A stretch of 64,000 nt of DNA from Desulfobacteraceae bacterium Eth-SRB1 (GTDB taxonomy: Bacteria; Desulfobacterota; Desulfobacteria; Desulfobacterales; ETH-SRB1), in NCBI GenBank assembly GCA_004193555.1, contig RPGP01000001.1, positions 648,156-712,155 of the forward strand, read 5' to 3'. The position numbers were made by a program, and so were the translations under genes. The notes beneath the pieces were generated by a model. That model saw only the letters and a list, made by a program, of their open reading frames with translations, was not told the DNA's origin and did no database searches. Position 1 is the first letter of the stretch; the number at the start of each line of letters is the position of its first letter. This document shows, one piece after another, positions 1-44,754 of this stretch.

Positions 1-853
1 CCTGGTGTAAACTGAGTTTTCTCAGATAATTTTGATGTGTTCTGTCGACTATGAAATGATTGTCGATTTCAGGACAGGCCACTGTTTCGTTCTGTTCATA
101 AGCTTCTTCAAACAATCCTTCCAGCGTGTGCACCTCTTCGCTATGCTCCTTGAAATCCTCCAGATTGCTGATTGCCACCATTCGAATATAGGAACCTTTT
201 TTCCACCCCATACTCACTTGAGAACAATTAAATCGAGAGGCAATTTCATTGACCAGCGTCATGCAGGACAACAGAAATTTCTCTTTATCCATTATCCTGC
301 CGGCAACTTCCAGAGCATTGACCAGCAGTGGATTTGCTGCGTCGCTCCCTTCAACATTTGATTGTTGTTTACGGATATAATAGTGTAAAGGAATATCGCT
401 GATAAGCTGTGCTCGAACAACCACATCGTTAAACTGCCGGGCGTTCTCCCTGTCGGCAACTAAAAGAAGGGCCGCCTCATCATCATGAGTATTACCGGCA
501 TCTATTTTAATAACCAGGGCAACAGGAAGAGAGATACGGGGAAGAGCCATATCTAACCGCTCATAGGCAAAACCGTTTTGACAGGCCCTCTCCACCAGAT
601 TGAGCGCCGCCGCGAAAAAACTTTCTTTATCCGATGTCATGGCTTCGTTGCTGTAAAATTCCTGGCGCACACGCCAGTCGTTACTCCTTTTTGTCATAAA
701 AAACACAGCCGGAGATTTACACAAAACAGAGACGTCGGAGAGCAGAATCTCCCAGAATTCAGTTTCATCCCCTTCATGAAAGCGCAATGACTTGAGATTT
801 TCTAATATTGCCCTTCCGTTTTCCTGAGGACCTTTTTGATTTGTTTCAACCAT
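1..853 (-). CDS. Partial GAF-like regulatory or secretion-accessory protein (N-terminal 284 residues)
   Basis: The reading frame is open from an ATG at 853 to the window edge with no stop. It is the last visible gene of the giant-adhesin operon, 170 bp after the HlyD-like gene. The residues visible (start MVETNQKGPQENGR) form a soluble alpha/beta pattern with no signal peptide. A segment around residues 190-284 (ALEVAGRIMDKEKFLLSCM, then NEIASRFNCSQVSMGW) resembles the start of a GAF domain. From family knowledge, LEPR-XLL secretion operons in these bacteria often carry a GAF-containing protein with a downstream HlyD-type adaptor portion, so this may be the N-terminus of such a protein. The C-terminal part is outside the window, so the role in secretion is inference. 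The start is supported only by a weak GAAAG 5 nt upstream. Confidence 0.6.
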   Translation of the reverse strand, partial: MVETNQKGPQENGRAILENLKSLRFHEGDETEFWEILLSDVSVLCKSPAVFFMTKRSNDWRVRQEFYSNEAMTSDKESFFAAALNLVERACQNGFAYERLDMALPRISLPVALVIKIDAGNTHDDEAALLLVADRENARQFNDVVVRAQLISDIPLHYYIRKQQSNVEGSDAANPLLVNALEVAGRIMDKEKFLLSCMTLVNEIASRFNCSQVSMGWKKGSYIRMVAISNLEDFKEHSEEVHTLEGLFEEAYEQNETVACPEIDNHFIVDRTHQNYLRKLSLHQ

Positions 854-43567: not shown

Positions 43568-44377
43568 TTAATGTATTGCCTTTTTCTTTTTCGGAGATGG
43601 TTTATCGCTCGTCAAGAGAGCTGCATCATCTTTTTCGATCTCGGCGAAATGATCACCTAAATCCTTCACACTTATCGTCTTCTTATCTTTGAACCCGAGC
43701 AACCGCTCAATCTGGGAGAGAGAACTCAAATGAGAATATGCAACCGGAATGTATTTTTTCGTCCGCATCTCAAGAAATGTCTCGTCAGAAAGAGAGTTTA
43801 GCCTCTCCTCATTAACAACATAAGCACCAGTAATATTCTTCAATTCATTTCCGATACGCACTTTCATATTAAGCGGCGTAAACATATTTTTCTCCGCTAA
43901 ATATTTACAAAGATCTTCCGTAAATTGATCCATTTGTTGAAGTTCAGATAGATAACGTTTCACTCGATTCATTAATTCAGCGGGCTCGCCTTTATCATCA
44001 AAAAGGTCCTGCCCTTCTTTTTCATTGATGAGATTACTTTGCTCGTCGATACAAACCGTAAAGCGGCCCTCTTCATTTGTTTTAGCGAGGGCAAAAGGAT
44101 AACGCCGAATAATGGCGGGGATATAAGAAGCCTGCCACTTATCATCCTGTATAAAAAGATTCTCTCCCTCTTCCAGGCCTAATAAAACAACGGGTCTGAA
44201 TTGATCTTTTCGCTGGTCTTCAACAAAGACAATAGGATAAATAGACGCCGCCCGTGAAAATTCATGAACCATAATTGAAGCCATATTGATATTTTTCGCA
44301 AATTCAAAATTTTCAATCGCTTTAACCTTTTTCTTCCCATGTTTTTCTAATGTGATCGGAACAACGCTTTTAAACAT
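43568..44377 (-). CDS. SapC family protein
   Basis: A 269-residue protein of the SapC family (named from surface-array-linked genes of Campylobacter). Family features are visible. MFKSVVPITLEKHGKKKVK begins the protein, followed by an E-F-x-x-A-x-x-Y-P-I-V-F core (HEFSRAASIYPIVFVED), the P-V-V-L-L-G-L-E-E-G-E-N-L-F segment, and the W-x-A-S-Y-I-P-x-x-I-R-R-Y-P-F-A motif. The C-terminal part is Lys-rich (DKPSPKKKKAIH). It has no signal peptide or membrane segment, so it is probably cytoplasmic. AAGGAG stands 8 nt before the ATG. It is the first gene after the riboswitch and lies 153 bp before the giant adhesin, with no terminator seen between them. The biochemical role of SapC proteins is not established. 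Association with type I-secreted surface proteins is recurrent. Confidence 0.88.
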   Translation of the reverse strand: MFKSVVPITLEKHGKKKVKAIENFEFAKNINMASIMVHEFSRAASIYPIVFVEDQRKDQFRPVVLLGLEEGENLFIQDDKWQASYIPAIIRRYPFALAKTNEEGRFTVCIDEQSNLINEKEGQDLFDDKGEPAELMNRVKRYLSELQQMDQFTEDLCKYLAEKNMFTPLNMKVRIGNELKNITGAYVVNEERLNSLSDETFLEMRTKKYIPVAYSHLSSLSQIERLLGFKDKKTISVKDLGDHFAEIEKDDAALLTSDKPSPKKKKAIH

Positions 44378-44423
44378 CTGACAATCTCCTTTTTAATTTT
44401 TAATGTGAACCCAATCAAGTATT

Positions 44424-44556
44424 GATGGCGTCGTAAAAAGTCGTCACTCCGGTGAAAACCGGAGTCCAGGCGATCTGAAACTACCTGTAATTACTGGATT
44501 CCGGCTTTCGCCGGAATGACGAAAGCCGGTGTTTACTGACTTTTTACGACTTCATC
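44424..44556. mobile_element. 133-bp MITE-like element in the sapC leader (family A)
   Basis: Ends are GATGGCGTCGTAAAAAGTC and the complement of GATGAAGTCGTAAAAAGTC. The flanks carry the direct repeat AAGTATT (44417-44423 and 44557-44563), a likely 7-bp target duplication. The core includes the widespread word TTCCGGCTTTCGCCGGAA and a smaller hairpin (ccggtgaaaaccgg). A sister copy lies at 47755-47886. The element sits between the riboswitch terminator and the sapC ribosome-binding site, so it is transcribed as part of the leader. Confidence 0.8.
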
Positions 44557-44565
44557 AAGTATTAA

Positions 44566-44606
44566 CAAAAAACGCCACAAGGCATGTTTGTCGAATGGCG
44601 TTATCA
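44566..44606 (-). terminator. Intrinsic terminator / expression platform after the riboswitch
   Basis: On the minus strand the arm AACGCCA pairs with TGGCGTT and is followed by six T residues, giving a Rho-independent terminator. The loop contains TTCGACAA (44595-44588), which is complementary to TTGTCGAA (44623-44616) right at the 3' edge of the riboswitch core. Pairing of these two 8-nt segments would enclose and disrupt the 5' arm of the terminator. This gives a simple switch between terminated and read-through RNA. Which state c-di-GMP favours cannot be told from sequence alone. Confidence 0.75.
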
Positions 44607-44620
44607 GTAAATATGTTCGA

Positions 44621-44690
44621 CAACCTGGCTATCATAACCTTCCGGCTTTAGACCCATGGCTTTGCGTCACCACATTTCAGCAGTTTTGCC
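44621..44690 (-). promoter_or_regulatory. Cyclic-di-GMP-I (GEMM-I) riboswitch aptamer
   Basis: The minus strand shows the conserved elements of the class in order. GGCAAA is at 44690-44685. A short hairpin follows with a GAAA loop (ACTGC and GTGGT arms, 44684-44669). Next is the conserved GACGCAAAGCC (44668-44658), and then a second hairpin with a GGAA loop. That hairpin carries a tetraloop-receptor-like internal loop (CTAAA on one side, TATGATAGCC on the other) and closes with TGG/CCA. This layout is the known docking of the first GNRA loop into the receptor of the second stem. It lies about 35 nt downstream of a good promoter and upstream of sapC and the giant adhesin, so c-di-GMP probably controls the whole operon. 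Confidence 0.9.
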
Positions 44691-44725
44691 TTTTTTGACA
44701 TTTACATTTTCTCATTATTATTAGT

Positions 44726-44754
44726 TATGTAGCGCCAACACACTTTATTGTCAA
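44726..44754 (-). promoter_or_regulatory. Sigma-70-like promoter for the riboswitch-sapC-giant operon
   Basis: TTGACA (44754-44749) is a perfect -35. After a 17-nt spacer comes TACATA (44731-44726), a moderate -10, within an A/T-rich stretch. Transcription would begin near 44,718, about 30 nt before the first conserved riboswitch residue. Confidence 0.65.

Follow-up and report, generated by a model that had tools for sequence, protein, structure and literature searches.

A predicted c-di-GMP-I riboswitch upstream of sapC, a giant LEPR-XLL gene and a candidate export module in Desulfobacteraceae bacterium Eth-SRB1

In Desulfobacteraceae bacterium Eth-SRB1, a sapC gene and an open reading frame of more than 39 kb follow each other on the minus strand of the 64,000-nucleotide stretch of DNA analyzed here (the window), which raises the question of how such a gene is controlled and by what route its product is exported. 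The first-pass annotation of the window proposed that a cyclic-di-GMP riboswitch heads an operon composed of sapC, a giant adhesin gene and type I secretion genes. The findings on the window are all based on one metagenome-assembled genome (MAG). The sapC gene (PF07277) and an open reading frame encoding a 13,222-residue LEPR-XLL protein were indeed identified (Table 1), but the adhesin role of the latter is a guess from its size and family, since its entire sequence yielded no Pfam domain. The LEPR-XLL motif (NF012209) was detected at residues 28–47 with a score of 30.5 bits, the cut-off being 17 bits.

When the whole window was compared with Rfam 15, a single match to RF01051 (c-di-GMP-I, GEMM-I) was obtained, with a score of 77.1 bits (E 2e-13) versus a curated threshold of 35 bits; it covers the model end to end (1–87 of 87) and has no second RF01051 match anywhere in the 3.34 Mb of the assembly. 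The full-length GEMM-I aptamer announced in the first-pass annotation is therefore borne out, and the GGCAAA, the GAAA loop, GACGCAAAGCC and the receptor hairpin are all present in the minus-strand sequence, the tetraloop and its receptor both being retained in the RF01051 alignment. The P2 helix is weak, with two G-U and one U-U, while the core is otherwise intact. The fold of the whole leader is not unusually stable (z -0.37), and this value is uninformative as evidence of structure. Family membership points to c-di-GMP as the ligand, with the reservation that the residue equivalent to C92 of the Vc2 aptamer is a U. The element is a further member of a known riboswitch class, with an unusual position 92 and an unusual target.

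From 5' to 3', the leader consists of a TTGACA hexamer, a possible P1 helix, the aptamer, 13 nt, a terminator, a MITE, an AAGGAG sequence and the start of sapC at 44377. As to the promoter previously placed at TTGACA, the hexamer is there (44754–44749), but its best-placed -10 is poor and none of the sigma-70 promoters scanned for passed at this site, inside the MITE or between the terminator and sapC. The terminator arms (AACGCCA, 44602–44596, and TGGCGTT, 44577–44571) are followed by T6, and the 5' arm begins 13 nt past the aptamer, without any overlap. The MITE has 45 full or partial matches in the same genome, many of which are 73–98% identical, and since it is flanked by direct repeats, its insertion probably lengthened the leader by about 140 bases.

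Table 1. Features of the sapC leader and of the genes downstream, in window coordinates.
Feature	Position	Strand	Basis or remark
TTGACA, candidate -35	44749..44754	-	sequence; best-placed -10 (TACATA) poor
Possible closing helix P1, 5' strand GUAAAUGU	44698..44705	-	pairs with ACAUAUUUAC 44616-44607, two-base bulge; sequence and constrained fold
Aptamer 5' edge AAUGUCA-AAA-AAGGCA, proposed antiterminator strand	44687..44702	-	complements UGCCUU-G-UGGCGUU
c-di-GMP-I (GEMM-I) aptamer	44616..44700	-	RF01051; G20 equivalent 44690 = G, A47 equivalent 44663 = A, C92 equivalent 44620 = U
Aptamer 3' edge UUGUCGAA, second proposed antiterminator strand	44616..44623	-	8-bp exact complement of 44595-44588
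Intrinsic terminator AACGCCA / UGGCGUU and U-tract	44567..44602	-	sequence, custom stem scan
MITE-like insertion, terminal inverted repeats	44424..44556	-	flanking direct repeats AATACTT(GAT)
Shine-Dalgarno-like AAGGAG of sapC	44386..44391	-	sequence
sapC, 269 aa	43568..44377	-	PF07277, 246 bits
Giant LEPR-XLL protein gene, 13,222 aa	3746..43414	-	ORF; NF012209
TolC-like outer-membrane protein, 568 aa	2077..3783	-	PF02321
HlyD/RND-type periplasmic adaptor, 273 aa	1024..1845	-	PF16576, PF13437
Start of GAF-HlyD fusion gene (622 aa in L132)	1..853	-	

The pairing of the terminator loop with the 3' edge of the aptamer, which had been suggested previously, was confirmed as an exact complementarity: TTGTCGAA (44623–44616) complements TTCGACAA (44595–44588), the loop stretch UUCGACAA being the exact complement of the edge as listed in Table 1. 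This complementarity was reached in 2.2% of the shuffles of the downstream sequence; in other platforms with a separate terminator, it was mostly not significant when compared with shuffles. The 5' edge forms with the terminator loop and 3' arm a duplex of -14.6 kcal/mol, matched by 5 of 2000 shuffled edges, and when folding is left unconstrained, this edge is paired with the terminator 3' arm with a probability of about 0.7. Based on the sequence and the folding model, the leader holds a terminator and a mutually exclusive antiterminator. With transcripts starting 8–30 nt before the aptamer, the probability of the terminator increased from 0.16–0.51 in the free state to 0.74–0.92 when the aptamer pairs were enforced, in a model without ligand, pseudoknots or kinetics, and the effect was weak or reversed with starts 35, 4 or 0 nt before the aptamer.

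In the absence of the ligand, each aptamer edge would pair with part of the terminator region, the 5' edge engaging the loop and 3' arm and the 3' edge the 5' portion of that loop; the terminator could then not form and the operon would be read. In its presence, the aptamer and P1 would fold, both edges would be occupied, the terminator would form and transcription would stop, as expected of an OFF switch. The riboswitch would in this way control sapC and the LEPR-XLL gene via transcription termination, and the export module is probably under the same control, on the same long transcript. We infer from the gene order that a single transcript covers all these genes, and no terminator-like site was found between sapC and the giant gene. 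The aptamer, the terminator and the complementarity can be read directly in the leader, and OFF polarity is favored by the modelling. We consider with moderate confidence that an OFF riboswitch governs sapC, the LEPR-XLL gene and the probable export operon by termination.

This explanation is strengthened by the presence of GEMM-I elements upstream of other LEPR-XLL genes. LEPR-XLL matches were obtained in 36 of the 389 genomes of the order, and a model derived from 30 GEMM-I aptamers was run over the stretches upstream of 52 LEPR-XLL genes, each of up to about 5 kb or less where a contig ended sooner. Apart from the window genome, same-strand GEMM-I elements were identified in G004, G033, G055, G340, G303, and G288, one of which belongs to the same family as the window genome, and the association recurs in other families of the order. 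These elements head 6 of 52 other LEPR-XLL genes versus 0.06 expected from the density of GEMM-I (119 in about 224 Mb, 58 relatives), an expectation that, like the shuffle figures above, ignores relatedness and tandem GEMM-I arrays. The element in G288 is just above the threshold (36.3 bits), and that in G303 is cut by the contig end. Being c-di-GMP-I or c-di-GMP-I-GGC (RF03167) elements, they share with the window both the class of aptamer and the class of giant gene. Tandem GEMM-I arrays occur in G033:C75 and C79, G025:C109, and G054:C102.

The same relatives also supply an argument for the opposite polarity, that of an ON switch in which the ligand relieves termination, as was shown for Bc2-cap. 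The elements of G004, G340, and G055 are of the GGC type (RF03167), and the 5' arm of their terminator is the 3' strand of the aptamer itself. Modelling assigned those of G340 and G004 to the ON type, whereas in G055, despite the same overlap, the modelled terminator is already weak without ligand. An ON switch would also match the usual promotion of adhesion by c-di-GMP (PMC6366702), an expectation that conflicts with the OFF polarity modelled here. In the window, however, the terminator lies clear of the aptamer, and the folded aptamer makes the terminator more, not less, likely in the model, so that an ON switch seems unlikely. These ON-type platforms count against the OFF explanation. The GGC elements differ from that of the window in their layout, and in the relatives no sapC was recognized between the element and the LEPR-XLL gene; the gene located there in G055 and G340 has about 470 codons and is TolC-like in G055. 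For two LEPR-XLL operons of the same order, modelling gives the reverse of the polarity predicted in the window.

The search for GEMM-I elsewhere, as proposed in the first-pass annotation, was positive in the case of LEPR-XLL genes and negative in that of sapC. The sapC gene is present in 50 of the 389 genomes of the order and was not found in other genomes of the family of the window genome. No GEMM-I was found before sapC in the other 35 sapC loci of the order, where the only GEMM detected is divergent from sapC (L086), and none that was convincing in 80 loci of named genomes. The closest of these 80 loci (75–77% identity) belong to MAGs named Geobacteraceae and Deltaproteobacteria; no Rfam match was obtained in the ten closest loci, and the leaders of the five closest showed no clear similarity. 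As far as searched, the riboswitch before sapC is particular to the lineage of the window, and the lack of a GEMM before the nearest sapC relatives counts against the OFF explanation.

In three genomes of the family, a radical-SAM (MoaA-like) gene that leads into a formate-dehydrogenase-like operon has a GEMM-I some 85 bases upstream (L043:16861-16945, L047:15777-15861, and L054:8471-8555). The window genome also harbors a formate-dehydrogenase-like operon (G000:C40:57333), with no recognizable GEMM-I, and no degenerate GEMM-I was found before its moaA gene. Homology between the promoter and leader of sapC and the leader of moaA-formate dehydrogenase in the same genome, which have the words TTGACAATAA and TGTAAATGTC in common, was rejected: their likeness was not above that of shuffles (80/1000) or of other DNA from the same genome (53/1262).

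The consensus UGCC is replaced by UGUC in the window aptamer. In the model alignment, the residue equivalent to C92 is C in 45 of the 47 distinct aptamers and U in those of the window and L106. The mapping is based on what we take to be the sequence and numbering of Vc2; a computed check was off by one at position 92, which was attributed to the engineered P3 loop of the crystallized RNA. Since C92 is a ligand contact, the affinity or specificity of the window aptamer may differ from the norm, and the natural U92 would be a test of how far a ligand-contacting residue can change. One alternative is that, with G20 and U92, the preferred ligand is 3',3'-cGAMP or some other dinucleotide, or that c-di-GMP is bound only weakly and the threshold is shifted. 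As quoted in PMC9049102 and PMC7288161, the engineered G20A/C92U Vc2 has a KD for c-di-GMP of 4900 nM versus 0.011 nM and binds c-di-AMP, and cGAMP is selected by natural GEMM-Ib aptamers in Geobacter (PMC6456294). The equivalents of G20 and A47 are both kept in the window, however, where G at 44690 stands in place of the A characterizing the GEMM-Ib (cGAMP) subclass. The data on the double mutant are not directly applicable, and no affinity for a single C92U change with G20 intact was found in the publications consulted. The U, which is known from one MAG, could also be a bulged insertion and not a substitution, and we find an altered ligand rather doubtful.

Together with the weak P2, the C92U change may mean low affinity or decay, which counts against the OFF explanation. 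If the element were decaying or uncoupled, for example after the MITE insertion, sapC would be transcribed independently; the MITE in the leader and the weak -10 would also fit this process. Yet the present aptamer sequence suits both antiterminator strands, even at U92, which has an A at 44591 to pair with, the promoter scan found none between the terminator and sapC, and the aptamer scores 77 bits with an otherwise intact core; we regard decay or uncoupling as quite improbable. A GEMM-I carrying both A20 and U at position 92 lies divergent from a sapC gene in G292 (L086:2613-2694, the same as L106:9573-9654); by analogy with the published mutants, this pair could favor c-di-AMP.

Direct RNA-level gating of an adhesin had been regarded as a distinct design, but it has precedents in Bc2-cap (PMC4933901), Vc1-gbpA (PMC4744006), and the class II riboswitches of Clostridioides difficile (PMC6366702). 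Since control of a surface protein by a riboswitch is already known from Bc2-cap and Vc1-gbpA (PMC4933901, PMC4744006), the design is not new. Upstream of cap, which encodes a collagen adhesion protein in Bacillus thuringiensis, the c-di-GMP-I riboswitch Bc2 is an ON switch (PMC4933901). It resembles the window in having a GEMM-I in the 5' UTR of a surface adhesion gene (a guess in the present case) and a terminator/antiterminator, but it serves a single wall-anchored protein in a Gram-positive organism, whereas in the window an OFF switch is predicted and the genes concerned encode a giant protein together with an export module. In C. difficile, class I riboswitches are OFF and class II, which serve surface proteins, are ON; with Cd1 before flgB, the window shares ligand-promoted termination (predicted here) and a long operon (23 kb in the case of flgB), although Cd1 serves motility genes and not a giant surface protein (PMC6366702). 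The window riboswitch provides a testable link between cyclic-dinucleotide signalling and a hardly studied class of very large secreted-type proteins.

The export module is the more interesting part of the locus. The type I secretion claim was half right: TolC and HlyD are present, but the genes identified downstream of the giant gene include a SecA-like ATPase and no recognized ABC transporter. Beyond base 1 of the window, the GAF-HlyD gene is followed by genes for a 719-aa M50-HlyD fusion and a short, 642-aa SecA-like ATPase, the three genes being located at L132:14038-19999. The SecA-like protein matches PF07517 (SecA DEAD, 259 bits), PF01043 (preprotein cross-linking, 96 bits) and the SecA chains of the PDB (E about 1e-112), and is devoid of the C-terminal zinc tail of the ordinary 840-aa SecA encoded elsewhere in the genome. 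The operon does not encode a canonical type I secretion system: it shares with such systems the HlyD-like adaptors and TolC encoded beside a giant substrate, and differs from them by the SecA-like ATPase and the M50-HlyD fusion. In the accessory SecA2 systems of Gram-positive bacteria, a second, shortened SecA is linked to giant surface proteins. The window operon likewise has a second, short SecA linked to a giant protein, whereas its module shows no SecY2, is linked to TolC and HlyD, and occurs in a Gram-negative organism.

Similar sets of genes are present in other genomes. In G004, the giant gene is followed by a small ORF, GAF-HlyD, an HlyD fusion, SecA-like, and HlyD genes. In G319, an ORF ends just before sapC, which precedes further ORFs, M50-HlyD and a SecA-like gene, while in G211 sapC stands ahead of such a set and a LEPR-XLL ORF comes after it; the SapCs adjoining the LEPR-XLL modules of G319, G322, and G211 are 54–57% identical to that of the window. 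The M50-HlyD protein was identified in 13 of the 17 LEPR-XLL genomes searched; among three genomes without LEPR-XLL, it was absent from two and gave a 17.9-bit match in one. At many of the 80 named sapC loci, a LEPR-XLL, SecA-like or M50-HlyD ORF adjoins sapC. Together with LEPR-XLL and SapC, the module is conserved across many Proteobacteria, where it is annotated only piecemeal, and is a candidate undescribed export system; searches of open-access text yielded no publication on a module of this kind. That a cyclic-dinucleotide riboswitch gates an undescribed Gram-negative route, in which a short SecA, M50/PqqD-HlyD, GAF-HlyD, SapC, and TolC export LEPR-XLL giants, is proposed tentatively, with somewhat less than even chances. 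A second SecA, with no ABC transporter seen, may answer the question as to how proteins of at least 10,000 residues leave a Gram-negative cell. A plasmid of Pseudosulfitobacter sp. DSM 107133 carries LEPR-XLL, HlyD, site-2 protease, SapC, and a SecA-like gene annotated as prepilin peptidase, and a Methylosinus plasmid carries a comparable set with TolC. The prepilin peptidase label given to SecA-like ATPases in two plasmid records (L298:13770-15794 and L299:7902-9818) may be the reason why the module went unnoticed.
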